From Branchiostoma floridae (Eukaryota; Chordata; Leptocardii; Amphioxiformes; Branchiostomatidae): a DNA stretch of 64,000 nucleotides. Position 1 is the stretch's first letter, and each line of letters starts with the position of its first letter. The position numbers and the translations under genes were made by a program. The stretch spans positions 3,679,753 to 3,743,752 of the forward strand of contig NC_049987.1 in assembly GCF_000003815.2 (NCBI RefSeq), given 5' to 3'. Shown here in pieces: positions 15,434 to 63,394 of the stretch. The notes beneath the pieces were generated by a model. The model saw only the letters and a list, made by a program, of their open reading frames with translations. It made no database searches and was not told the origin of the DNA.

Positions 15434-16150
15434 CGGAAAGACCATGTTGATAGGTGACTCAAACGTGCGACGATTACAGAGTTACCTCAGCGCAGACACA
15501 GAATGATACAAGACAGATAGCCAGCTAGTGATTGATGCATTCTCAGGTGCAAAAATTGAAACTATGGTATCTAAGCTATCCATTCTGCTATCTGTAGGGA
15601 CTGAAACAAACCAAGTAATTTTACATGCTGGAACGAACAACCTCGGAACGGACTCGATAGAAGTAATTATGACTAAATATCAAGATAATTATGAGGAAGT
15701 GAAGAGATGTCAACCAGAATGCCAGGTAGTATTTGCTAGCCTGCTTCCCAGACTAGACTGCAAAGAGAAGAATGACAAAGCTATGCAAGTGAACTGGGAG
15801 CTACAGCAACTTGTCAGCCAGCTACATGGTGCCAGGTATATAGACTGCACAGACCGGTTTATGGTAAAAGGTCTGGTAGATGCTAGCCTATTTAACACTG
15901 ATGGTTTACATGTCAATAAAGAAGGCACTGAAATCTGGGCTTCACTCATGTTAGATAAGATAGGCATACAAACTCACAATAGTGTATCATATGGAGCTAC
16001 TGGTATCCATTTCAGAGAGAACAGGCATTCTGGACAGAAATGTCAGGTATGTGGGGTACAAGACACAATAACTCAGTGTGAGAGTATTTAGGCATAGACC
16101 GCAATGTTTTACATGTGCACAATATGGCCACAAGTCTAAGTACTGTAACC
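15429..16150 (+). pseudogene. LINE ORF1 SGNH/GDSL esterase domain and CCHC zinc knuckle
   Basis: Block I is MLIGDSNVRRLQ (catalytic Ser), block III is VILHAGTNNLGTD, and block V is NTDGLHVNKEGTEIW (the Asp-x-x-His pair). Together these mark an SGNH-hydrolase (lipase/esterase-like) domain of the kind known in ORF1 of CR1-type LINEs. A TGA at 15504-15506 interrupts it between blocks I and III. After a stop at 16089-16091 a shifted frame at 16093-16149 gives RPQCFTCAQYGHKSKYC, a C-x2-C-x4-H-x4-C zinc knuckle; CQVCG just before may be part of a second finger. The known role of such ORF1 domains is RNA/lipid-associated RNP function. Confidence 0.8.
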
Positions 16151-16203
16151 TTGTCTGAATCTCTGGCAATGAGGAAAATGCCACAATTCACCATGTTATA
16201 AGA

Positions 16204-17564
16204 ACGACACTAACCACCGTGTCATGGAATGTTAATGGCCTGCTATCTAAACTAGATGACTGTGACTTCAAAATTTTCTAAAACAATATGATGTATTCGG
16301 ACTACAGGAGACATGGGCTCAAGACAAGGACGGCATTACCCTAGAAGGTTTCACAGTGTATACTAGCAACAGAGTTAAAAAGAAGAAGGCAAAAAAGAAA
16401 TTCAGGAGGACTAGCTATGTTTATAAGAGATGAATTCAACAAAGGAGTGAAACAGCTGCCAAGTCTGTCTAAAAATATAATCTGGTGTTTATGCAACAAA
16501 AAGACTTCTTTAGATGGCAAGCAAGTTTGCTAATTGGTCTGGTTTATGTGTTCCCCGCTGACTTACCTGCACACAACACTGAGGATATTTTTCAAATAAT
16601 TGAATCTGAATTATCCCAGTACTCTTAAGAAATAGGTAACTGTGATTATATGCTAATTGGAGACATTAATGCTAGAACCGGCTCCCTGTCTGACTATTTG
16701 TTGGAGGAAATAGAGGATGATGAATTTGCCCCCCTCCCACAGGGATATATGGTAGACTCAGTGCCTCCCCAGAGGACTTCACAGGACAATCAAATCAATG
16801 GGTTTGGTTATAATCTAATAAACTTATGTAAGACAACAAACTTAAGAATTGTTAATGGCAGATTGTTTGAAGATAAAAATGTTGGTAGTTTTACATGTGT
16901 TCGTGAAAACATCCACAACAAAGACGGGTTACCAGGAAGAAGTGTGGTAGATTATATATTGGTAAAAGATAGCACATTAAAATCAATTAAAGACTTCGCA
17001 GTAGTATACAGAGCTGAGTCAGACCACATGCCCCTGCTATGTAAGCTTCCCATCAACAACCCTTCAGTACAGACCAAACACAATACCCAAAATAATGGAT
17101 CAGTAAGGTATAAATGGAATGGGGATAGGGTTGAAAAATTTAAAAACAGACTACAGGGACAAAAGGTACAAGGGCTATTGCAAGAAATAGTCACAGATAT
17201 TCAGGATAATGAAATAGACACAGCTGTGGAAAAAATAGGTCAAGCACTAGAAACAGCAGCAGCTCATATGGAACAAAACTCATGTAGCAGAGAAGACTTG
17301 GTAAGGAACAACCAAGATGAATGGTATGGGCAGGATTGTAAACAAGCAAAACAAACTTTGAATAAGAGAATTCATAGATTCAGGAGATCTCAATCTGAGA
17401 ATAATTTGAGAAATTTTAGACAGGCTAGAATGGAGTACAAGGCTATAGTAAGGGCAGCACACAGATCACATACTACAAGTCTCAGAACACAGCTAAAGAT
17501 TGCAAAAAGGGATCCCAATGAATTTTGGAAATTATTAGAAAGTGAACAACATTGGAAATATTAG
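16204..17564 (+). pseudogene. LINE ORF2 apurinic-type endonuclease domain
   Basis: The EEP fold is visible across several frames: TVSWNVNGLLSKLDD (start), FGLQETWAQD (QE motif, with a frameshift before it), then a long frame from 16650 with MLIGDINARTGSL, VVDYILVKDSTL and AESDHMPLLCKLP (SDH motif). It continues into a basic linker of about 180 residues leading to the RT. The catalytic landmarks are present but spread over frames, with stops near 16279, 16427 and 16625. Confidence 0.8.
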
Positions 17565-19108
17565 TGTACAGGATTTTGCTCATTATTTTGAAGAACTTTT
17601 CAATAAGTCAGAAGAGGAAAATACAGCCGAGAGCAATGCCAATAGTATGTGGGAAAATTCTGATCACTGTAATACTGAGGTTGACAGCCTAGATAAAGAA
17701 ATTTCTGAGGAGGAAATTTTAGACAGTGTCAAGAATCTCAAAGCAGGCAAGGCACCTGGCACGGACAAACTATTACCATAGTTTTGTTTTTCATGAGAGT
17801 ATTTCAATTCTGTTACCATACCTAAAAATGTTGTTCAATAAATGTTTCACGCTTGGTGTAATACCAAAACAATGGACAGTAGGTGTTATTCAACCATTAT
17901 TCAAATCTGGAAACAAAGATGATGTGGGGAATTATAGAAGTATTACCCTATTATCAGTATTTGGCAAATTGTTTCTTGCAATCCTGGGGAAAGGATTGAA
18001 TAATTGGGGTCAGGCTGAAGAAAAACTAGTGGAATCACAAATGGGGTTTAGGAAGGGTTATAGTGTTTTAGATAGTTTGTTCTGTCTAAATGCTATGGTG
18101 CATAAATATTTATCAAGACCAGGTGGACGATTCTATTGCGCATTCGTAGATTTTTCAAAGGCCTTTGATAGCGATTATAGAGGGTATTTATGGATGAAAT
18201 TAATAAATGGGGGAGTAAGTAGTAAAATGGTTAAACTAGTTCAATCACTATATTCCGAAGTAAAATCCTGTGTCAGACTGAAGAGTGAGATGAGTGAGAT
18301 ATTCACATGTAATAGAGGGGTAAGACAGGGGTGTATATTATCCCCCTTCTTATTTGCCTTCTTTTTAAGTGACTTAGATGATTATTTGACACAAAGTGGT
18401 TGTAGAGGTATACAAGTGGATGATGTTGAAATTTTAAGCTTAATGTTCGCGGATGACCTAGCCTTGTGTGCCGACTCAATAGTCGGTCTGCAAAGGGTCC
18501 TTAATGCACTAAACAAATATTGTGAAAAATGGCAGATGACAGTAAATTTAGTTAAGACGAAAGTGATAGTTTTTCGGAATGGATGTAAGTTAAGGCGGTC
18601 GGAGATGGTTTAATGGTGGAAAGAAAGTTGAAGTTGTCAGCACTTACACGTACCTAGGTATAACCATCTCTTCTAGGGGAAACTGGTATAGGCTAGGGCT
18701 CAGGACAATCTTACATCACAGGCATCCAAAGCAATTTTCATACTCAAGAAGAGGATTCACAAATTTGGTGTATTATCCCCAGAGTTAGTCTTTAAATTGT
18801 TTGATACTATGATTTTGCCTATTATGATGTACGGGTGCGAAATTTGGGGGTTCCATCCGTGTAAACAACTAGAAATAGTACACAATAAATTTGGTAAGTA
18901 TTACCTAGGAGTTAGACATAATGCATCAAATACAGCAGTTAGAGGAGAATTAGGGAGACATCCTCTTTATGTACAGAGACAAATTAGAATAATTAAATTT
19001 TGGGTAAAAGTGTTAGAGATGAATGAGAACAGCTATTCAAGGAAATGCTACAAATTACTGTGCGAACTTGACCAGGTGGACAGGAAGTCCTGGTTAAGCC
19101 AGGTTTAG
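17542..19108 (+). pseudogene. LINE ORF2 reverse transcriptase
   Basis: RT blocks in order: LKAGKAPGTDKL; a frameshift near 17775; NYRSITLLSVFGKLFL; SQMGFRKGYSVLDSLF; AFVDFSKAFDS; CNRGVRQGCILSPFLFAFFL; and LMFADDLALCADS (catalytic FADD). A TAA at 18611-18613 and a further frame change lead to ILPIMMYGCEIWGFHPCKQ and GELGRHPLYVQRQIRIIKFW, the thumb/connection part. The catalytic core is intact; the reading frame is not. Confidence 0.85.
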
Positions 19109-42549: not shown

Positions 42550-42837
42550 TAAATGGGAGCATGAGAAAACCAGAGCTAAAGTTGAAACAGTACATTTTTA
42601 TGAAATAAACACCTCTATTTTGATGTGATATTATGTAAAAGGCGTACAACATATATTTACCAATTGCTAATTTCCCAAAATCTACAACTATTGCACTACT
42701 TAAAGGAATATTATTCTATTCTTCTTTCCCATGTAAGACTTATTATGTACCATGTAACGGCTCATTTTATTTTTATTTGAAAACAGTCACTTGGGAAAAG
42801 TATCTGAGTCATTACATCAGGAACTACAGTATCATGT
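42550..42837 (+). other. Helentron 5' leader (inferred)
   Basis: No gene. The stretch between the MITE and the Helentron ATG ends with a pyrimidine-rich run and AG (TTTTATTTGAAAACAG) at 42767-42786, which could be a splice acceptor. Helentron 5' end signals were not identified. Confidence 0.35.
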
Positions 42838-44160
42838 ATGCCTCGGTCAAAGTTTAAAAGCGTAGAGCAAAAACGAAAACAGAGAGCTGCTTCCAGGAAG
42901 AGAAAAACAGCACACTTAACACCAGAAGATGCTGAGGCACAACGGGCATACAAGAAGGCAAAAATGCAGCAATACCGATCAAAAGAGACAAAAGTGACAA
43001 CTAACGAACGACTTCCAAATATGAGGGCCTACAGGCACAGAAAGAGAAGAGCAGAAACACAAGAACCTACTCAGAAAAGACGTGCAGAAATGAGGCTATG
43101 CGAGAACAAAAGACGAAGAGAAGAAACCGAAGAGGCTACTCAGAAACGACGTGCAGATGTGAGGGCGAACATGCAGAAAAAAAGGAGAGAAGAAACCGAA
43201 GAGGCTACTCAGAAACGACGTGCAGATGTGAGGGCGAACATGCAGAAAAAAAAGAGAGAAGAAACCGAAGAGGCTACTCAGAAAAGACGTGCAGGAATGA
43301 GGGCGAACGCGAACCAAAGAAGAAGAGAAGAAACCGAAGAGGCTACTCAGAAACGACGTGCAGGAATGAGGGCGACCGCGAACCAAAGAAGAAGAGAAGA
43401 AACCGAAGAGGCTACTCAGAAACGACGTGCAGAAATGAGGGCGACCGCGAACAAAAGAAGAAGAGAAGAAACCGAAGAGTCTACTCAGAAACGACGTGCA
43501 GATGTGAGGGCGAACATGGAAAAAAAAAGGAGAGAAGAAACCGAAGAGGCTACTCAGAAACGGCGTGCAGCTAATAGAATTGAAATGCAACAAAGTAGAA
43601 AAAATAAGCAAAACAAAGAAATGACGATTGAAGAATGTGCCACCGCTTTCCACACTAAAATAGCAGACGGCCCAATTTATACCTGCATTTCCTGCTGTAG
43701 ACTCCTCTACAGATGTACAGTCCTGGAGTTCAAGGCCAGTAACTATTCATCTAATCAGGTCATAGAGAAAATACTCAACTTTGGAAATGACATGAAAACT
43801 AATGGAAAATCTTGGATATGTAGGACTTGCCATTCAGCCCTTAAGCAAGGAAATGTTCCTACCCAATCGTGGATAAATGATATGGAACTTGATGTCATTC
43901 CGGACGAATTGAAAGATTTACAACCCCTAGAGCTCAGGCTAATTAGCCAAAGAATTGCATTCATGAAGATGGTGGGGCTGCCCAGAGGAGGTCAATAGGC
44001 CATCCACGGCAGTGCTGTCAACGTACCATCTAAGTTGCAGCCAGTAATATCCTTACTGCCCAGACTACCAGAATCAGCAGAAGTGGTTCCATTTAAGCTG
44101 AAAAGAAAACTTTGCTACAAAGGCCACTATATGCACCAATGCATTCGCCCCCCAGTGTGT
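42838..44160 (+). pseudogene. Helentron Rep/helicase N-terminal part: STPR-like repeats and DUF6570-like region
   Basis: From ATG 42838 the frame runs 386 codons. It holds a basic start (PRSKFKSVEQKRKQR), then about eight tandem copies of a 23-residue unit (EETEEATQKRRADVRANMQK), then a Cys-rich segment (TCISCCRLLYRC, WICRTCHSALKQGNVP) and ELRLISQRIAFMKMVGLPRG. The 23-residue Glu/Arg repeats resemble STPR DNA-binding repeats. The Cys segment and 'LPRGGQ' match the DUF6570-type N-terminus of Helitron replication proteins. A TAG at 43996-43998 follows GGQ, but the same frame continues (AIHGSAVNVPSKLQPV, FKLKRKLCYKGHYM) to a +1 shift at about 44157, where the next frame takes over. Confidence 0.8.
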
Positions 44161-44161
44161 A

Positions 44162-46341
44162 ATGAAAGCACTACGATGGCTACAAGAGAACAATCCGCTG
44201 TATAGGGATATCTCTATTTGCAAAGACTGGGAAAGTCAGTGGAAAGACAGTGAAGGTGATTTGTGGGACGCAATGACAAACAATGTTCGTGAACAGAACA
44301 TAGATGAAGGAGATCTCGAGAACACAGTTCATGACACAGGAAGCAGTTTGACTGCATGCCCTGCCTCTGTAACCACTTCATCTCTTGATGTTTACTATGC
44401 GACATTAGATTATTTGGCAAAAATGAGAAATTTGAAGATAAGGGATGTCCCACGTGATGGAAACTGTTTCTTCCATGCTATGTCATTGTGTCTCCGTACC
44501 GCTGGACTTCAAGTTGTCAGTGGACCAGAGATAAGAACACGCCTTGTAGATTACTTTAAAAGTACAGAGCACATAGATCTGTATTCCGGCTTCCACACAT
44601 TTCCGGACAATATTGACACATTACGTGGAGACAATTCCATCTCACAACAGCATCAGCAATTTCAAGTCTATGTAGATGGGTTAAGAAGAGGAGAATGGGC
44701 TAACCACTTGGCAGTGAAAGGTGTCGCTGACATGCTGAAGGTGAACATTGAAGTCATAGCAGTCTCTTCAACACATTGCACACACACTATTCAGCCACAA
44801 CAGGGAATTAGTCAGACTACCGTTACACTCGGACTCATGGGAGAGCTGCACTATGTTGCACTAGAGGAAGCTGAGGCTGAGGTAAGACTGGAGATGAGAC
44901 AGGAGTTAGAAGACGAAGAGGATAGAGTCGCTGCTGAAGAAACATGTAAATTACGAGGTATTCCATATGACTCTCTACTGCAAGAGGAAGAAGTTGTGGA
45001 TGGTGAGAGTACTTATTCTGTCGCACCGGGTGAACATCAGCGGCCATGCCCTTTCCTTACTGACGTACATTTTGAAGTCCTCGCAAATCCTGCAAAATAT
45101 CCGTATGGTCATGGGGGATTCAGTGAGAAGCATCAGAAAGACATCACCATTAGAAGGTATTTCAATCAAAGGCTTTTACATGTTGACGGAAGGTTTGCAA
45201 GAGATATTGACTATCTCTTTGCTGCACAATACGCAGTTGAAGCAAAGCAAGTCAGCGATAATATACAGATATATTTGCGTCAGACACGAGGACATACATT
45301 TCAAGGTAGGAGGATCAATGCAGGGCTGATGAAGAACCAGAACACTATTGACCAGATGCTTCGCACAGACACAGCAGTCAAGTTCATGAAAAGCATTCGC
45401 GGTTCACCATCATTCTGGAACTCGGCCCTCTTAGACCTTCTTGGAATGGTAAGACAGCTTGGATTACCTACATTTTTCCTCACCTTGTCTGCAGCTGACA
45501 TGCAATGGCCTGAAGTGATCCAAAGTATAGCGCATCAATATGGCAAACGCCTCACGGCAGACGACGTCAAGAACATGGGTTATGAGGAAAAATGTCATTG
45601 GCTACGCTGCAACCCTGTGACCGCTGCCCGTCAATTTAATCATCGTATTGATGCATTCTTCAAAGAGTTCATAGGAGGGAAGGCACACCCAATTGGATAT
45701 CTTCAGGACTACATGATTCGCATTGAATTCCAAGCCAGGGGTTCACCGCATGCTCACAGTATCCTGTGGATAAAAGATGCCCCCCAAATTAATGTTGATT
45801 CCGATGAAGATGTTGTCAAGTTCATAAATGAACACATAACCTGTTCTATTCCAGAAGAAAATGACGAGGAATTGAGAAAGTTGGTGCTCTCCGTGCAGAA
45901 ACACGGCCACTCAGCAACATGCAGACGAGAACAAAAATGCTGATTCCGATTTCCTCGTCCACCGAGCCAGGAGATGCTCATTGCTAGACAGAGTGAAGAC
46001 CCAAATGCTGCAAACATTGAACGAGATTTAAAGATAAAAACAGAGATTCTAAAAAGTGTACGAGCAGTTATAGATAATAGTAATGTTGATGACAACATAT
46101 CCTTGGATATTGTTCTTGAAAAGCAAATGTAGACCCAACCTTGTACCACAAAGTCTTACAGACAACGAGATCAGGCAAGGACATCGTCCTTAAACGTGAA
46201 GTATCTGAAACATCCATAAATCCATATAACCCTCACATTTTGCGGACATGGGCAGCTAGCATGGACGTCCAGTACATCCTTGACGTTTATGCGTGCATAA
46301 TGTATATCACGAGCTACATGCTTAAGAGTAAATGTCTGTAA
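44162..46341 (+). pseudogene. Helentron Rep: OTU protease domain and HUH endonuclease
   Basis: The frame 44162-45943 has an OTU cysteine-protease domain near residues 95-235, with DVPRDGNCFFHAMSL (Asp and Cys) and GELHYVALE (His). It then has a Helitron-like N domain with FQARGSPHAHSILWI, the HUH metal-binding motif, at about residue 529. A TGA at 45941-45943 sits where CRF is expected (a CGA-to-TGA change). The same frame goes on as RFPRPPSQEMLIARQ to a 1-base shift near 46125. Then GKDIVLKREVSE and VYACIMYITSYMLK give the Rep tyrosine motif (Y-x3-Y-x2-K). Homology stops at about 46330, where other DNA is inserted. Catalytic residues are retained although the frame is broken. Confidence 0.85.
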
Positions 46342-46844
46342 GGATCAAACAATGGTGGCAAAGGTCAAAAAATCGATTTGGCTCATATTTTGCACAGTGA
46401 TAGTACTTGGTCCACAACCCCTCAAAATAGCTTTCTTTTAGATCAAAACTCCTTGTTGCCATGGTAACGGGCCAACAAAGTTTTCTGGCCATTTTCCCCA
46501 ATTTCCGCATCTCAAAAACACGGAAATCGGCATACTTTACGGAATTGTCACGCCAACACCTTTTATTGTATCGTCAAAACAAAACAAGATCTGAATAGAC
46601 CAACATTTTGGCATTTTAGAAATTGTTGTGAAATTTCCAACGAGACAAAATTGAGTTCTTGGGCAGCATCAAAACAATACAATGTTTCAAGCTTCAAAAT
46701 AACGTAATTTTTGGCCCAACTTTGTAACGCCATAAGTGCCGAGCTGGTAATTTTTTTGACTTGAAATTTGTACCCTGTATAGATGATTGATATATCTATC
46801 ATATACATTGTTGCAAAGTTTGGGGTCTTGTTTGGTTGTCACGT
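46342..46844. mobile_element. Left outer part of fold-back insertion
   Basis: Sequence after the break in the Rep gene, with no coding sense. It includes 'gttgccatggtaacgggcc', also seen in the piggyBac-like MITEs, and leads into the tandem-repeat arm at 46845. The exact left end of the insertion is unclear. Confidence 0.4.
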
Positions 46845-47570
46845 GGTTGTCCTCGAAAGTAGGCCAGTTTTTGCGTTTGACGAAAATTGTGAATTTTAGC
46901 CATGTTCAAAGTACTACATGTGACAAAATAAAACAGAATTCTAACTCAACTTCTTGTCAAAGAGAGATCTATGTATTGTCTATTTAATAAATGCTTGAAG
47001 AATTTTAGATCGTTTTAGATGACGTTTAGTCACGTGGTAGTCCCTGGAAGTAGGCCACTTTTTTTGCGTTTGGCAAAATTTTGAATTTTAGCCATGTTCA
47101 AAGGGTTTTCTGTGACAAAATGAATTTGAATTCTGATTCAACTTCTTGTCAAAGGGAGACCTAGGTATTGCCTATCTAATAAATGATTTCAGAATTTTGA
47201 GTCATAAAATGTAGTCCCGTGGTTGTCCCTGAAAGTAGGTCACTTTTTTGCATTTGGCGAAAATTGTGAATTTTAGCCATGTTCAAAGTACTCTACGTCT
47301 AAAAAGAAGTCTAACTCAACTTCTTATCAAAGATAAATTAGACAACGCCTATATGATAAATGTTTGTAGAGTTTCAGATTGTGACATTTAATCACGTGGA
47401 TGTCCCTGAAAGTAGGTCACTTTAGATGAAAATTGCAAACTTTAGCTGCATCCGAAGTACAATACTTAGCAAAGTGGAATAGAATTATGATTAAACGTTT
47501 TGTCAAATGTAGCTGTAGGTATTGGCTGTCAAACAATTAATTGTAGAGGTTTGGATTTTGTCGTTGGTTG
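46845..47570 (+). repeat. Fold-back element, left arm: ~185 bp tandem units
   Basis: Units start with GGTTGTCCCTGAAAGTAGGT, then 'ttttgc(g/a)tttggcgaaaattgtg aattttagccatgttcaaag', 'tctaactcaacttcttgtcaaag' and 'attgcctatctaataaatg'. Starts are near 46845, 47037, 47221 and 47399, with a short fifth piece near 47560. The same unit occurs in reverse complement at 48945-49450. Confidence 0.85.
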
Positions 47571-48944: not shown

Positions 48945-49460
48945 CTAGATATGGCCTACTTTCAGGGACAACTATGTGCCTAAAAATCACTACTTGAAAC
49001 TCTTCAAGCATTTATTAGTTAGGCGATACATAGATCTTTCTTTGACGAGAAGTTGAATCAGTATTCTAATTTGCTTTGTCATGTAGAGTACTTTGAAAAG
49101 TTTCGCCAAATGCAAAAATTGACCTACTTTCAGGGACAACCACGTGACTGCATTTCATGACTCAAAACTCTGCAATCATTTATTAGATAGGCAATACCTA
49201 GGTCTCTTTTTGAAAAGAAGTTGAAGCAGAATTTGAATTCAATTTGTCACAGAAAACACTTTGAACATGGCTAAAATTCACAATTTTTGCCAAATGCAAA
49301 AAAGTGACCTACTTTCAGGGACAACCACGGGACTACATTTTATGACTCAAAATTCTGAAATCATTTATTAGATAGGCAATACCTAGGTCTCCCTTTGACA
49401 AGAAGTTGAATCAGAATTCAAATTCACTTTGTCACAGAAAACCCTTTGAATATACATGGC
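48945..49460 (-). repeat. Fold-back element, right arm: inverted tandem units
   Basis: Reverse-complement copies of the left-arm unit: ACCTACTTTCAGGGACAACC near 48957, 49121 and 49306, with 'catttattagataggcaata cctaggtctc' and 'gacaagaagttgaatcagaa' between. The two arms could form stems of several hundred base pairs. Confidence 0.85.
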
Positions 49461-49604
49461 AAGAAATTGGACATTGTGAAACATGGGGCATTTCCAAACC
49501 TAACAGAAGACCTAACGTAGAATGATATTGCACCCAAGGGAATTCACCGATTTTTGCAACACAATCCACCTTACATGCCAATCAGGTACTTGAATTTCAT
49601 GTTG

Positions 49605-50059
49605 TGAAACAACAAGAGGGGCGAGTAGAACAGAAAGAAACAACATCCCGACTCCCGGGATTCGAACCCGCGCCGAACCCGGGCAGCCGGATCACCAAGC
49701 CATCACGCTACCGCTGTCGCCAAAAGCTCAGAGCTGCTTGGCAAGGACGGTAGGCGGTGCTTGAACCCCACTGTTACACTACTCCCCCTTTTGTTTTCAA
49801 GATTCGTCCTCGAATCTCCGGGTTCGATCCCTGTGGGCAGGCGCATCTCCGGCCTGTTATCCACCAGGGCCACGTCGGGCGCCAATGAAACAACAAGAGG
49901 GGCGAGTAGAACAGAAAGAAACAACATCCCGACTCCCGGGATTCGAACCCGCGCCGAACCCGGGCAGCCGGATCACCAAGCCATCACGCTACCGCTGTCG
50001 CCAAAAGCTCAGAGCTGCTTGGCAAGGACGGTAGGCGGTGCTTGAACCCCACTGTTACA
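49605..50059 (-). mobile_element. TRIM (miniature LTR retrotransposon), complete, minus strand
   Basis: Two identical 174 bp direct repeats (49605-49778 and 49886-50059) flank 107 bp. Read on the minus strand, each LTR starts TGTAACAG and ends TTGTTTCA (TG…CA). One base after the 5' LTR comes TGGCGCCCGACGTGG (49884-49870), a primer-binding site complementary to a tRNA 3' end with CCA. Just before the 3' LTR is a polypurine tract AAAACAAAAGGGGGAG (about 49797-49782). A 4 bp target-site duplication GTTG flanks the whole (49601-49604, 50060-50063). There is no coding capacity, so it depends on a partner element. No LTR differences means recent insertion. Confidence 0.93.
49658..49710 (-). promoter_or_regulatory. 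tRNA-like Pol III A and B boxes in the TRIM LTR (copy 1)
   Basis: On the minus strand, TAGCGTGATGG (49710-49700) resembles a tRNA A box (TRGYNNANNGG). About 31 bp on, GGTTCGAATCC (49668-49658) is a perfect B box inside a CGGG-TTCGAAT-CCCG T-arm-like stem. The same pair recurs in the other LTR at 49991-49981 and 49949-49939. The anticodon and acceptor arms are not convincing, so this is a tRNA-derived promoter rather than a tRNA gene. Confidence 0.75.
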
Positions 50060-50249
50060 GTTGTCTGGGCTGGGACAGTATACACATTTTCCATCAACCC
50101 TTCGTCCAAAACCTTCCACAGCCTAACAAGGGACACACGCCATCCTGACACAAGAGGGACACCGAGTCTCAAACAAACCTTACATAACGGCATTAGCACG
50201 GGTGGTCCTTCTTAACAAGACACACGCAACCAAGTTTTTCCACCTTACG

Positions 50250-50515
50250 TTACGAGCTGCGATGTTTTCGTCAACCCTTACGTTACGGAAGCCTGTCCGC
50301 TATCTCGGGCTGCGATTTTTTCGTCAACCCTTACGTTACGGAAGCCTGTCCGCTATCTCGAGCTGCGATGTTTTCGTCAACCCTTACGTTACGGAAGCCT
50401 GTTCGCTATCTCGAGCTGCGATTTTTTAGTCAACCCTTACGTTACGGAAACCAGTTCAAGCCAGTTGCGTGTCCGCTATCTCGAGCTGCGATCTTTTCGT
50501 CAAACGTTACGGAAG
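50250..50515. repeat. ~53 bp minisatellite, about 5 units
   Basis: The unit is 'gctgcgatgttttcgtcaac' + 'ccttacgttacggaagcctg' + 'tccgctatctcga'. Copies are nearly identical except the last, which has an extra 'aaccagttcaagccagttgcg' block. The unit length lets frames stay open by chance. Confidence 0.9.
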
Positions 50516-51374: not shown

Positions 51375-52761
51375 CTTTATTTACAAACCAAGACGTTGAT
51401 GACCACAATGAAGCTCAGTTGGCTAGGTCCACAACGGACATCTTCCATATCAAGGCCATTGACAGGAGAAAGGATGTTCAAACAGGACTTTTCAACGTCG
51501 CCTTTCCAAAAAAAAAACATCCGAGACCGGTAATCTTAGAGAGTATGTGCATGTGACTGTGGGAGCCAGAGTGATGGTGACGGTTAACATCGATGTGGCA
51601 GATGGCCTTTCCAATGGAGTCCTCGGTACCGTCATTGGAATCGACAAATTGGGAGAAGACATTCAAACTATTGTTGTTAGATTTGACAGTGACAATGTAG
51701 GTAGACAAGCTATTGCAAACAGTCAATTCAAGCAGAAGTTTCCTCATGCGGTACCAATCAAAAGACATACTGCACAATTCCCTGTTGGAAAAGGTCGATC
51801 AGTATTGGGAGAGCGGACTCAGTTTCCGCTGACATTGGCATGGGGATGCACTATTCACAAAGTTCAAGGTCGAACATTAGACAAGGTTGTCATGAGCATG
51901 CAGGGTAGAGGGCGCTTTATGCCAGGGCAGGCTTATGTTGGCTTGAGTCGTGTGAAGAAGCTGAGCAATTTGTACCTTCTTGGATTTGATCAGAATGCAA
52001 TTCGCGTAAATTCAGCTGTCAAAGATGAAATGACTCGTCTTCGGCAAACAAATGTACAAAATGAGCAAATTAACTATTCACCCCCTAGTGCTGACACTGT
52101 TCTTACCATTGGTTACTTAAATATACGGTCATTTGAACAGCATCTGAAAGATTTCAAAGCTCACCATTCAGCTCTCAAACATGAGGTTTTCTGTTTTGTG
52201 GAAACATTTTTAAGACATGACCAAGAAGGTGCACATTGCTCAGATTATTCACAAGTTGACGTAAGGCTGCCTTGGACAAAATGCTTCAGAACTGACAGGC
52301 TTTCAACAATAGGAAGAGGGGGTGGGGTGATGATAATGGCTGGTGACCATGTGTCTCCAAGAGAACTAAGATGTGTAGCTGCTAGATTAGAGTATACTGC
52401 TGTTATTGTTAAGAAAGTACATACAGGGGTCAACATTGTCACGGTGTATCGCCCACCAAATTTGCCGTTACCATTTTTAATGGGTCAACTGACAAGTCTC
52501 CTAGCCCCCATTGACAAGACAAAACCTACTATCGTCGTAGGAGACTTTAATGTTGACCTTATCACGTCTCCCTGTCACAGTATTGTAACCTTCATGACAC
52601 AACATGGTTTTACGCAGCATGTTCACCACCCAACCACAGACTATGCATCCCTGCTTGACCATGTGCATGTGCAGACTGAGTACAAAGTGCAGATAAATGT
52701 AGAAGACACATATTACAGTGATCATGATATGTTGTCTATTTCACTCGCTCTTGCGGTTTGA
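51375..52761 (+). pseudogene. Helentron PIF1 helicase C-terminus fused to EEP endonuclease
   Basis: The frame resumes with NQDVDDHNEAQLARST and runs to an A10 tract (51508-51517), where it shifts to the frame used from there to the stop at 52759-52761. Helicase motifs: VHVTVGARVMVTVNIDVADG, LAWGCTIHKVQGRTLDKVV (motif V), and AYVGLSRVKKLSNLYLLGF (motif VI). The endonuclease follows directly: LTIGYLNIRSFEQH, VFCFVETFLRH (catalytic Glu), IVTVYRPPN, TIVVGDFNVDL, and YYSDHDMLSISLAL (SDH). A Rep-helicase with a C-terminal EEP endonuclease and an OTU domain is the known layout of Helentrons. The endonuclease active-site motifs are all present. Confidence 0.9.
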
Positions 52762-58281: not shown

Positions 58282-58438
58282 GAAGGATTCGAATGGCATC
58301 ACGGGAGTAGGTCGTGTCGTGTCTGAGCTCGCTCCCGACTGAGTACAATTTTTTGGTGGTAATTTGAGCCTGTTATTGTTACAACTTTCTCCCACATACA
58401 TTCTTAAAGTATTACTGGTGACCGTCCCAACATTCGAC

Positions 58439-59221
58439 ATGATGACTACCCGGCAGAAACGTCTAGCTTCGACGAAAGGACATGACTCTGCTGGAGACAA
58501 AGAAGACAAACATGGCGGCGACACGGAGGTGTCTTCATCGGAATTCGAGACCTTCGTGCGCGACCAACTCCAGAGGATTTTGGACGGACAGAGGGTGCTA
58601 CATGAAGAGGTGAGATCCTTGGAGGAAAACCTAGAAAAAAATGTCCAAATGCTAGAGTCACGAATGGAGAAAGTTGAAAAGAGAACGACCGAGATACAAA
58701 AAAATGTGAAAGAATCTGCGCGCGAAACCTCTGATCAGATTAAGTCGCACACCGACAAAATGAAGATTATGGAAGAGAATCTGGCAGAGCTGAAACACAA
58801 GTGCAACAAGTTAGAGAGATTCTCCCGCAGAAATAATATCAGAATAATCGGTCGCAAAGTTGGAAAAGGTGAAAACTGCATCTCTACTGTAGACAAGATT
58901 TTCCATGAGAAGTTCGGCCTTACACATGTGAAAATCGAACGAGCCCATCCCGACGGACCGACCAAGAACAGCCCAGACGGTACCCCTCAACACATTCTGG
59001 TCAAGTTAAACAGCTATCAAGATAAAGTCAGTATCATGAAAGTGGCAAGAACCAAGCTGAAAGCCGAAAACTTCTTCTTCACGGATGACCTCACAGGTGC
59101 TGATCTGCAAGAAAAACGTAAGTGGCGGGAAAATGTCAAACAGGCGTACGAACAGGGGGTGAAATACCGGTTCTACAATGGATATTGGAGAGATGGGAAA
59201 GGAAAACCAGTGACTTTCTAA
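58439..59221 (+). CDS. L1/Tx1-type LINE ORF1 protein
   Basis: Intact frame of 260 residues from ATG 58439 (MTTRQKRLASTKGHDSAG); in-frame non-ATG codons upstream are less likely starts. Residues ~45-125 form a coiled coil (EEVRSLEENLEKNVQMLESR, EENLAELKHKCNKLERFSRR). An RRM-like and C-terminal domain follow (RRNNIRIIGRK, VKIERAHPDGP, HILVKLNSYQDK, KYRFYNGYWRDG). This is the L1 ORF1 (Transposase_22) plan: trimeric RNA-binding chaperone of the LINE particle. Complete. Confidence 0.9.
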   Translation: MMTTRQKRLASTKGHDSAGDKEDKHGGDTEVSSSEFETFVRDQLQRILDGQRVLHEEVRSLEENLEKNVQMLESRMEKVEKRTTEIQKNVKESARETSDQIKSHTDKMKIMEENLAELKHKCNKLERFSRRNNIRIIGRKVGKGENCISTVDKIFHEKFGLTHVKIERAHPDGPTKNSPDGTPQHILVKLNSYQDKVSIMKVARTKLKAENFFFTDDLTGADLQEKRKWRENVKQAYEQGVKYRFYNGYWRDGKGKPVTF

Positions 59222-59598
59222 AGGTTACATGACATTGTCCTGATAAGACATTTATTCCCACTACTCGCTTCAAACTTAATTATACTTTGGCTCCTAAGCT
59301 TAACTACACGGGGAGCAAAATCCTACTGAACTGTTCATCATGTTAGACCGTGATTTGCCGATATTGTTTATGTTGTTTGTAGAATTTCTTCTTTTTGTGT
59401 CAGTAATTGTTACTATGTTTGCAAGTGTACAATTATGTCTGGAATCCCATCCACCTGCTGGTTCCAAGCCCACTATTGTTATTCATGAGGTCCACCTGGC
59501 GAACCAAATCTCCATATCAAAGACTGGCACATTCTCGTCAAAATTCCAATTGATACCATTTCTACTCCCTTTCCTTCCCGCCTCAAAGTCAGCTTTCG

Positions 59599-62500
59599 GT
59601 AGCTAGTTTCAATTGTAATGGCTTAGGAAAGAAAGAAAAAAGACGGGAAATCTTTACCTTTTTGAAGGACAAACCGTATTCAGTTTTATGCCTACAAGAA
59701 ACTCATTCCAGTGAAGAGCGGGAAAAGGAATGGATTGCAGATTGGGATGGACAGATTTTGTTTAGTCATGGAAGGGAAAATAGTTGTGGGGTTTTGGTAT
59801 TATTTAAAAATGATTTGTCTTTTCAGATAAATGAAGTCAAAAAAGATAATGAATTCATTATATCAGATTCATTATATTCATTATATTAGATTTGACTGTT
59901 GGTAAACTTCGTATCTGCTTAATTAATATATACGCACCAAACAAAGACGACAAAGTCTATTTTGAGAATGTGGAAAGAAATATCCAGACAATGGTATATT
60001 GTAACGATAATGTAGTATTGACCGGTGACTTTAATACTGTTTTTGATGTAAGTAAAGACAGAGCTGGCCAACAGCCAGTTAACTATCATCCACATGCTAC
60101 CCAGGCACTCTTGGAACTTTCTGATACACTTGATTTAGTAGATATTTGGCGATTGAAAAACCCTGAAACTATACGTTATACGTGGCGAAGAAACAAACAA
60201 GCCAGTCGCCTAGACTACTTTTTGATTTCATTCTCTTTAATAACAAAGGTTACAAATACCTCGATTGAGTACGGCTTAAGATCGGACCATTCTCTAATTG
60301 GCATTTCTGTGGTAACGTCTGAAATACCAAGAGGGCCTGGCTTTTGGAAATTCAATCAAGAACTTTTAGATGATCCAACATTTTTTAAGGAGATCTCTAG
60401 CTTTTTTTTTTTTTATTTCAGAATTCTTTTTGTTTAATAATGGCTCAGCCAATCCTCACATGGTATGGGAATCGTTCAAGTGCGCCGTGCGCGGTCAGAT
60501 AATTAGATATTCGTCTTGGAAACGGAAAAAAAGTAAAAAGTCTGAATCACTCCTTACCAGTGAGATCGACAGCCTGCAGAAAATATTAGACGCATCCCCA
60601 GATAGTGACACCTTTCATAAATTACAAAGGAAAAAATATGAACTAGAATTAATTTACCAAGCAAAAGCTAATACTTTAATCGCAAACAGAAGAGCCAAAT
60701 TTATGGAGCAGGGGGAGAAATGTACTAAATTTTTCATGAACTTAGTTAGTAGGGGTCATGCAAGGAAAAACATGACGACACTTGTGAATTCAGATGGATT
60801 GATCTTCACGGAGCCTCAAAACATTCTGCAGGAGCAAGTAAAATTCTATGCTAACCTTTATGCGTTTGAAAATTCTCCCATGTCTTTAGACAGTGATGTA
60901 TTCTTACCCTTTTTTCCAAAAGCGGCCCCCATCTTATCATCTGGCCAATGTAGCAGTTGTGAAGGTCCGATAACAGAAAAGGAATTGAAATTAGCTGTCG
61001 AATCTTTTTCCAGTGGAAAGTCTCCAGGTCTTGACGGACTCCCTACTGATTTTTATAAGACCTTTTTTAACATCTTAAAACAACCAATGCTAGACTCATT
61101 CAATTACTCATTTCAGGTGGGGCATCTGTCTGAGTCCCAAAAAATTGGTCTCATTTCTCAAATTCTTAAACAGGACCCAACTGGGCAAGATAAAAACCCC
61201 ACTAGTATGAAAAACTGGCGACCCATAACATTGTTAAATTGTGACACCAGAATTTTATCAAAGTGCATTGCCTTGCGTATGAAAAATGTAATCTCAAGCC
61301 TTGTCTCATACGATCAGACAGGATTTTTACAAGGACGTAATATAAGTGACAATATACGAAAAATATTAGAAATCATAGAATATTATGATCTTAACGAAAA
61401 GCCAGGCTTGATTTTTATTGCGGATTTCCAGAAAGCTTTTGATAAAATAAGACAAGACTTCATTCTCAAAGTGTTAAGATTTTTTGGATTTGGAGAATCC
61501 TTCCTGAATTGGATAAAGATTTTATATAAAAGTGCGGTTAGTAAAGTAATTAACTATGGGTATATCTCTGAATCATCCCCCCTCACCCGTGGAGTTCGCC
61601 AGGGCTGCCCACTTTCTCCTTATCTCTTTATTTTAGGTGCTGAAATACTAGCAATCAAAATCAGAAGTAACAACGAAATAAAGGGTTTAAATATTCATGG
61701 CATCGAAACAAAAATCTCTCAATATGCAGACGATTCCAACTTTCCACTCGCTGCAACACTTGGCTCTCTGCACGCCCTTACCGGCGATTTAGATCTCTTT
61801 GCGTTGCTATCTGGCCTAGTTCCTAACTTTGACAAGTGTGCTGTACTTCGTATTGGTTCTCTAAAATATACAGACTTCTATTTACCCTCTCCTCTGCCCA
61901 TACGATGGACAGATGGACCTACAGAAGTTTTAGGTATCCATATTCCTGTAAACTTTAAAGATATTGTGTCAATCAATTTTGACCGAAAATATATGAAAAT
62001 AGATAAAATTTTGAATCCCTGGAAAGAAAAAGTACTATCACTTATGGGGAAAGTCACTCTGGTAAATACACTTATAGTTTCACAGTTTATATTTTTATTA
62101 AGTTCGCTCCCGTCTCCATCGTCAGCTTTTTTCGACAAATATGAAAAAAAGATTTTCAAGTTTTTATGGCGTGACGGACCCGAGCGAGTTAAGCGAAAGA
62201 CAATATATAATGATTATGATCAAGGTGGATTAAAACTTCAAAATCTGCGAGCTGTCGATCTCAAACTGAAGGCCGCTCTAGTGCCAAAACTGCACAAAAA
62301 CGAAAACTGGTTTTGTTCTAAATTATTGTCCTTCTCTAGTCCTGTTCTTAGAACCAGTACGTTTCCTTTTGCACAGCTTAAAACGAATGACTTTGAAATC
62401 TTGATTAAGAAAGTAGTCAGTCTGTTTTTTCGACAAGTTATACAAAGTTGGTTGAAATACCAACTACGCCCCCCAGAAAATAGCATACAAGTCAAACAGC

Positions 62501-63394
62501 AACTCCTTTGCTTGAATTCACATATTTGTATAAATAGGCGACCCTTTTGTTCCTCAGCCTTCTTTCATAAAAAGTACTTTTTGTAAATGACATTATTGAT
62601 GCTGAGAATATTTTTTGTCTTTTGACAGCTTTGTAGTCAAATTTGGAGATGTCTGTACAGCTTATCAGTATCATCAACTTTTGTCAGCTATTCCTCCTCA
62701 ATGGAAACATATTCTAAGACAAGGCTCCTCAGAGCTACGTGTTTGCATCCCTGCCTGTAGAGATGTAACCTGGCTACATAGTAAAAATATTAATAAATGC
62801 TTATATGCTTTCTACATGAATGAAGCCAGATTATGTGAAACTTCAGACAGGATACAGTACACGTGGGAAGATTATTTCAACTGTCCAATACCATGGCAAA
62901 AGGTTTATAGCCTACCTTACAAAATTTCCATTGACTCTAGTGTTTGCATGTTTCAACATAAACTATTATTCAAATACTTGACCGTGAACAAGACCTTATA
63001 CACTTGGGGTTTGAAGGAGTCGCCCTTATGTGAATATTGTAATGAAGATGAAGAAACAGTCTTCCATCTCTTTTTTCATTGTAGAGTTGCTACACGTTTC
63101 TGGATGCAAGTAGAAGACTGGTTTTTCGTCAATACTGGGGAACATTTAAATCTAAACCTGTTTAAAGTTATCTTTGGTGATTTGAATTGTCGGTGCCCAG
63201 TTTCTGCCAATATGATTATCCTTCTTGGCAAACACTTTATTTTCAAGAACCGTCAACGCTCTCTTAATTTACAAGCCTTTATTTCATATATGTCATACTT
63301 CCATAGGCTAGAATATATTATAGCAAAAAGGATGGATAAGATAAAAGAACACTTTGGTAAATGGGGGAAAATAGCTTTATCGTTAAAACAGTGA
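59599..63394 (+). pseudogene. L1/Tx1-type LINE ORF2 (endonuclease and reverse transcriptase), frameshifted
   Basis: Endonuclease: ASFNCNGLGKKEKRREIF, VLCLQETHS, then a frame change at a short 'attcattatatt' duplication (about 59870-59890). Then CLINIYAPNKDD, VVLTGDFNTVFD, ASRLDYFLIS and LRSDHSLIGIS. A T12 run at about 60402-60413 gives the next shift. The RT frame 60370-62586 has SGKSPGLDGLPTDFYKTF, NWRPITLLNCDTRILSKC, IFIADFQKAFDKIRQDF, TRGVRQGCPLSPYLFILGAE and SQYADDSNFPLA (catalytic YADD). After a stop at 62584-62586 and another T-run, 62615-63394 supplies the C-terminal Cys/His region (LCEYCNEDEETVFHLFFHC). All catalytic motifs are intact; the T-run shifts could be assembly errors. Confidence 0.9.

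Follow-up and report, generated by a model that had tools for sequence, protein, structure and literature searches.

The element and its surroundings

On the minus strand of the window (the whole 64,000-nucleotide stretch analyzed) lies a noncoding element of 455 bp, formed by two LTRs identical at 174/174 positions and an internal part of 107 bp between them (Table 1). In the minus-strand reading, the LTR starts with TGTAACAG and ends with GTTTCA, and the internal part runs from TTGGCGCCCGACGTGG to the polypurine tract (PPT) AAAAGGGGGAGTAG. The sequence GTTG stands on both sides as a target site duplication (TSD). The first-pass annotation had described this LTR pair, its spacing and the duplication, all confirmed by our sequence comparison, as well as a PBS and a PPT, both of which are present, the PBS being of tRNA-Lys type with 14/15 matching bases. 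A search of the 64-kb window for further copies of the LTR or the internal part gave none, only words of 15–18 bases with E values of 0.03 or worse. The B-box-like word reported on the plus strand of the internal part also exists, although at 49821-49831 and not at 49822-49832. Visual comparison showed no common register between this word and the tRNA copies of two relatives (L018 and L060, see below), and we dropped it as a candidate remnant of a primer tRNA.

Table 1. Features of the element in the order of the minus-strand reading (positions within the window)
Feature	Position	Strand	Basis
TSD, upstream copy (CAAC on minus strand)	50060..50063	-	Sequence repeat
5' LTR, 174 bp, TGTAAC...GTTTCA	49886..50059	-	Same sequence as 3' LTR and as either LTR of the contig C15 copy
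T4 run of 5' LTR (LTR 54-57), just upstream of A box	50003..50006	-	Motif scan
A-box-like TAGCGTGATGG, 5' LTR	49981..49991	-	Box scoring
B box GGTTCGAATCC, 5' LTR	49939..49949	-	Box scoring
PBS TGGCGCCCGACGTGG after 1-nt spacer	49870..49884	-	1 change in 15 vs. published tRNA-Lys1,2 site
Perfect 7-bp hairpin AGATTCG-AGGA-CGAATCT, upstream of PPT	49800..49817	-	Sequence
PPT AAAAGGGGGAGTAG, adjoining 3' LTR	49779..49792	-	Sequence; similar PPT in relatives
3' LTR, 174 bp	49605..49778	-	Identical to 5' LTR
T4 run of 3' LTR, proposed Pol III terminator	49722..49725	-	Motif scan and family conservation
A-box-like word, 3' LTR	49700..49710	-	Box scoring
B box, 3' LTR	49658..49668	-	Box scoring
TSD, downstream copy (GTTG on plus strand)	49601..49604	-	Sequence repeat

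The TRIM sits between an ORF of Helitron Rep/OTU type (44102-45943) and an ORF (51463-52761) with endonuclease domains and a weak match to Pif1 2B; the two may be parts of a single Helentron with insertions, and upstream, the ORF at 42808-43998 has a 69-bp repeat array. Tandem repeats of 185–192 bp (46838-47423 and 48955-49454), mutually inverted and about 79% identical, lie between the two Helitron ORFs, and a 53-bp tandem array occupies 50253-50449. The window also has a piece of a DDE_Tnp_4 transposase (2072-2536) and two LINE-like regions with RVT_1 (15507-18613 and 58343-63394), one of them with a GDSL-lipase-like domain upstream.

A dispersed family with 4-bp target site duplications

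We searched the genome (513,431,437 bases in 431 contigs) for relatives, as the first-pass annotation had advised, and found at least 42 matches to the LTR (40 of 1310 candidates scored) and at least 40 to the internal part (40 of 395 candidates scored). For study we took 33 loci around LTR matches and 34 more from internal-part matches. The family is dispersed and includes full copies, single LTRs and tandem arrays, and exact 4-bp TSDs flank most copies that could be resolved. In the first set, a script identified them around 9/14 two-LTR structures, the window's included, and 15/20 single LTRs. The remaining two-LTR structures have a truncated 5' LTR (L021, L039 and L041), an altered 3' LTR end (L030) or a difference at one of the four bases (L031); the remaining single LTRs have altered or truncated ends (L024, L033 and L034) or are followed by a PBS (L025) or by CTGGTT (L027). 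In the second set, which took in only loci where the script recognized a 5' LTR, a PBS and a PPT and left out 8 structures without a findable 3' LTR end, exact TSDs flank 11/14 copies with settable LTR ends, the misses being a tandem array (L046), a copy with a PPT-like 5' flank (L054) and one unexplained case (L063).

In a full copy on contig C15 (L009), both LTRs are identical to those of the window and the internal part differs at 1 of 107 bases; this copy has its own GCAG duplication and flanks unrelated to the window's. A local tandem duplication merely resembling an LTR element would likewise give two identical direct repeats, and arrays do exist among the relatives, but a further copy, sharing the LTR sequence yet lying on a different contig inside its own TSD and unrelated flanks, together with the single LTRs that have TSDs, makes such an origin hardly conceivable, and we rejected it in favor of transposition. 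The LTR–internal–LTR structure and the TSDs recur in the family copies, and the family, TSD, PBS and PPT evidence supports the initial description of a young TRIM whose LTRs carry a tRNA-like promoter of Pol III type. The window element and its twin do look young, though we give no date.

The two LTRs are identical within the copy in the window element, L009, L051, L060, L061, L063, L065 and L067. The most divergent pair is that of L023 (135/172), where a 5' LTR of one subfamily and a 3' LTR of another lie inside a single GTAC duplication (L023:408-860), a mixture attributable to gene conversion or recombination. L046 and L048 are tandem arrays of LTR–internal units; the former has four PPT–LTR junctions, and its LTRs lack the B box, apparently by deletion. 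Two exact-pattern scans of viral contigs gave 0 matches each.

Two primer types and copies of the primer tRNA

Of the first 15 bases of the window PBS, 14 agree with the published tRNA-Lys1,2 site TGGCGCCCAACGTGGGGC (PMC8775094); the gypsy element of flies uses tRNA-Lys with the PBS TGGCGCCCAAC (PMC6541305). The subfamilies nearest in LTR sequence carry a PBS of tRNA-Glu type, TGGTTCCCAYRCCG, in 11/12 copies, L036 being one base off. Related subfamilies use different primers, Lys and Glu. Compared pairwise without gap columns, the window LTR agrees with LTRs of the Glu group at 0.90–0.93 and with those of the Lys group at 0.78–0.84; for full-length Lys-group LTRs, the value in the multiple alignment is 0.63–0.66. 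For the internal part beyond the PBS (from base 17 on), the values are 0.93–0.95 for the Glu group and 0.89–0.97 for the Lys group. The window element may have arisen by PBS replacement or may be a recombinant; its LTR sides with the Glu group while its internal part is about equally near to both, a pattern that does not separate the two routes.

Three copies inside 4-bp TSDs hold a primer tRNA in reverse complement: a complete tRNA-Glu in L018, a nearly complete tRNA-Lys in L060 and a partial tRNA-Lys in L052. In L018 (outer TSD TCAG), the order is LTR, C, complete reverse-complement tRNA-Glu(CTC) with CCA (Rfam tRNA, 56.2 bits), AG, LTR, internal part and LTR; AG also precedes the 3' LTR in 13/13 internal parts printed to their end. 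The insert begins with CACACCG, whereas the PBS of L018 itself reads CATGCCG, and the insert was therefore copied from the tRNA and not from the PBS. In L060 (TSD TCGC; LTRs 181/181), the LTR is followed by a reverse-complement tRNA-Lys(CTT) from CCA to about nucleotide 8 (45.5 bits), the last LTR bases, the PBS, the internal part and the LTR. L052 (TSD GACA; LTRs 181/184) has the same arrangement with 50 nt of tRNA-Lys, 49/50 of them as in L060, and the Rfam score of this piece, 24.4 bits, is below the gathering cutoff of 29.

Because the duplications lie outside them, the tRNA copies must have been present in the cDNA before integration. Plus-strand synthesis usually stops at the modified (methylated) A58 of the primer tRNA. 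The plainest reading of the three structures is that plus-strand synthesis would have passed the modified A58 and that the product would then have been joined, or have switched, to another end. Among the papers listed by a literature search, none dealt with primer-tRNA copies in TRIMs, which does not prove that such reports are absent.

Promoter boxes and tRNA likeness of the LTRs

In the window LTR, the A-box-like word occupies LTR 69-79 and the B box LTR 111-121, 42 bp apart from start to start, and they match 7/9 and 9/9 specified positions, respectively. The joint score of 16/18 was reached by 4/3000 dinucleotide shuffles of the window LTR and by no second site anywhere in the window; the exact sequence GGTTCGANNCC appeared on either strand in 1/3000 LTR shuffles. 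Among the 46 LTRs of the first set, which is biased to close relatives by the choice of query, the B box is perfect in 42/46, TAGC is found at the A site in 44/46 and the GG half of that box in only 9/46. In a diverse set of 29 LTRs (24 from the second batch and 5 representatives), several of which are truncated, the B box is perfect in 19/29. The B box first proposed for the window LTR is thus a feature of the family, but the proposed A box holds only in part: its TAGC is kept, the GG half is weak and absence of the box from the family is excluded only partly.

The window LTR matches no tRNA family of Rfam even at E 10, and the LTRs of L009 and L017 match none at E 1. Eight loci were compared with Rfam: hits to tRNA-clan families covered an LTR in L041, L051, L052 and L061, with scores that never reached gathering, and in L009, L017, L018 and L060 no LTR was hit. 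ARAGORN called no tRNA in the window element at its default or at three other settings; tRNA-like calls appeared only at two permissive settings, and we treated them as noise. On these ARAGORN and Rfam results we rejected a functional tRNA gene in the LTR. Rfam gave no match to 5S rRNA at gathering in the window, nor at E 10 in the element. Between the first 18 bases of the PBS and the LTR, the longest exact complement is 5–6 nt (three copies: window, L017 and L061).

Placement of the T4 run

In the window LTR, the A-like box is preceded by a T4 run that begins 15–16 bp away, and the same distance is seen in Lys-group LTRs with a recognized A-like box. T4 is present in 46/46 LTRs of the first set and upstream of the B box in 26/29 LTRs of the diverse set; in 25 two-LTR copies (11 from the first set and 14 from the second), it is at this site in 25/25 5' LTRs and 24/25 3' LTRs, being absent in L058. 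Between the two T4 sites, TTTT is absent in 25/25 copies (21/21 in an earlier count). In a shuffle control with 21 of 22 copies, L058 being left out, 0.9–1.8 T4 were expected per copy with a chance of none of 0.17–0.45, and as the copies are also related, the lack of T4 in the transcript body is only suggestive. The window element contains no TATA, AATAAA or ATTAAA.

Relation to known elements

tRNA-derived SINEs share with the window element a box A/box B promoter, small size and the lack of coding sequence, and they have no LTRs, PBS or PPT. They are mobilized by non-LTR retrotransposons (PMC10886601). A tRNA-derived TRIM in an animal, which the first-pass annotation had put forward as a new parallel design, is already published: under the name Helenus, Kojima (2024; PMC10886601) describes TRIMs with tRNA-like LTRs from fungi, plants and six animal phyla, TRIMp3 being a name for the same design. 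According to that paper, Helenus elements are 311–1263 bp long and carry the boxes GGTTC (B) and TRGCY...YGG (A), and those of animals have 4-bp TSDs and Gypsy-like PBS regions, tRNA-Lys and tRNA-Glu being among the PBS types reported from bivalves. Mobilization by an autonomous Gypsy element with a similar PBS region is the expectation for this kind of element. Helenus was defined from consensus sequences, Pol III use and the primers were inferred, and Pol III transcription was not demonstrated (PMC10886601).

The amphioxus family resembles Helenus as a short TRIM with box B GGTTC in putatively tRNA-like LTRs, PBS and PPT, 4-bp TSDs and a PBS of Lys or Glu type, and the 455-bp noncoding window element, with its two LTRs, PBS and PPT, falls inside the Helenus length range (PMC10886601). 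As in Helenus, the tRNA-like LTR sequence is not complementary to the PBS in the three copies tested. The A box of the amphioxus family is weaker, however, and internal copies of primer tRNA and a T4 upstream of the A box do not appear in the Results, Discussion, figure legends or tables of PMC10886601. The chordate hosts tabulated there are coelacanth, sturgeon and paddlefish, and ostariophysan fish, and its main text mentions neither Branchiostoma nor amphioxus nor lancelet. Among the matches listed in our literature search, we recognized no other paper on tRNA-like LTRs from titles and the starts of abstracts.

Other TRIMs follow a similar plan. Cassandra of plants likewise has a Pol III-type promoter in its LTRs, an RNA ending in the 3' LTR, as is predicted here, and tandem arrays, but its promoter originates from 5S rRNA, its hosts are plants and ferns and its PBS is TGGTATCAGAGC (PMC7215508, PMC10886601); its RNA reportedly begins within the 5S stretch of the 5' LTR and terminates within the one of the 3' LTR, the overlap being 18 bp (PMC10886601). 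Ajax, a nemertean TRIM with 5S-like LTRs, follows the same logic in an animal host, but is 5S-derived and has a 5-bp TSD and a tRNA-Leu PBS (PMC10886601). The biv-TRIM of bivalves, an animal TRIM with repeats of 202–218 bp, an internal part of 77–80 bp, solo repeats and tandem arrays, differs in that no tRNA-like promoter is mentioned and no clear PBS given in the available sections of its description (PMC6934838).

The predicted transcript and alternative readings

Taken together, the evidence makes it likely that the window element is a recent nonautonomous TRIM of the Helenus kind, transcribed by Pol III and moved by proteins of Ty3/gypsy type. The LTR–PBS–PPT–LTR anatomy, the 4-bp TSDs, the dispersed family, the Lys and Glu priming and the identity of the window LTRs can be read from the sequences themselves. 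In the 5' LTR, RNA polymerase III would use the box A/box B promoter and start close to the T4 that precedes the A box by about 15 bp and lies at about the expected transcription start. It would read through the internal part and terminate at the corresponding T4 of the 3' LTR, a putative terminator giving a transcript of short overlap as reported for Cassandra. The predicted product is an RNA of about 280–290 nt whose ends share only a very short repeat. A Ty3/gypsy-type element would supply the proteins that package this RNA, reverse transcribe it from a tRNA-Lys or tRNA-Glu primer, with the PPT serving the second strand, and integrate the product. With the T4 so near the start, the repeat at the RNA ends might not suffice for strand transfer unless some transcripts read through. 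In a more specific joint reading, the LTR would be a Pol III cassette with the stop just upstream of the start and a repeat of a few nucleotides, and reverse transcription would often continue past the 18-nt primer site and A58 into the tRNA body, leaving tRNA copies in the genome and letting the PBS switch from one subfamily to another; we offer this tentatively and regard it as possible, with the balance slightly against it.

Two other readings of the transcript have to be weighed. With a true Pol III promoter, the T4 might be bypassed, the 3' end of the RNA being set by a T run farther downstream or by processing, which would make R long. T4 is a short stop signal over which Pol III can pass, one 3' LTR (L058) lacks it and the family has tandem arrays, all of which would fit such read-through, but the position of the run is kept in 46/46 LTRs of the first set, 26/29 of the diverse set and 24/25 3' LTRs, and we find a bypass somewhat unlikely. 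The precedent of Cassandra points both ways: transcripts of its tandem arrays read through intervening LTRs (PMC7215508), and yet the reported end of its RNA lies within the 3' LTR and gives the 18-bp overlap (PMC10886601).

The further alternative is an ordinary TRIM transcribed by Pol II, in which the tRNA-like stretch is a nonpromoting relic left, for instance, by a SINE insertion into an LTR. Conservation of the B box and the upstream T4 in many LTRs far from the window's (0.63–0.66 in the multiple alignment, 0.78–0.84 pairwise) argues against a relic, as do a transcript body without T4 in 25/25 copies and a window element without TATA or poly(A) signal; the weak A box in most LTRs examined, the lack of a tRNA-family match for the window LTR and a TATATA stretch downstream of the boxes in LTRs of the larger Lys group are what Pol II transcription would have in its favor, and we judge it unlikely. 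Under the preferred reading of a Pol III-transcribed TRIM, the family offers a testable prediction of where the transcript starts and stops, and it bears on how a Pol III promoter can be reconciled with LTR-type replication, a process dependent on repeats at the two ends of the RNA.

The window element is real and young, and its family apparently represents a new host lineage for the published Helenus design, whose range would extend to a cephalochordate if no database entry already covers amphioxus. What is new here are the internal copies of primer tRNA, the use of Lys and Glu primers within one family and the placement of T4. The tRNA-Glu and tRNA-Lys sequences copied into integrated elements are physical records of priming.

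MicroRNA-family matches near two copies

Two matches to microRNA families lie close to copies of the family. Less than 700 bp from a Helenus-type copy, L041:1495-1551 matches mir-2060; the match is cut by the end of the locus and is below Rfam gathering, and it contains the 20 nucleotides published for the B. belcheri microRNA bbe-miR-2060c-3p (PMC5650284). A hairpin beside the twin copy (L009:1263-1341) matches mir-196 at 39.8 bits, below the cutoff of 55.4, and is perhaps a palindromic repeat.
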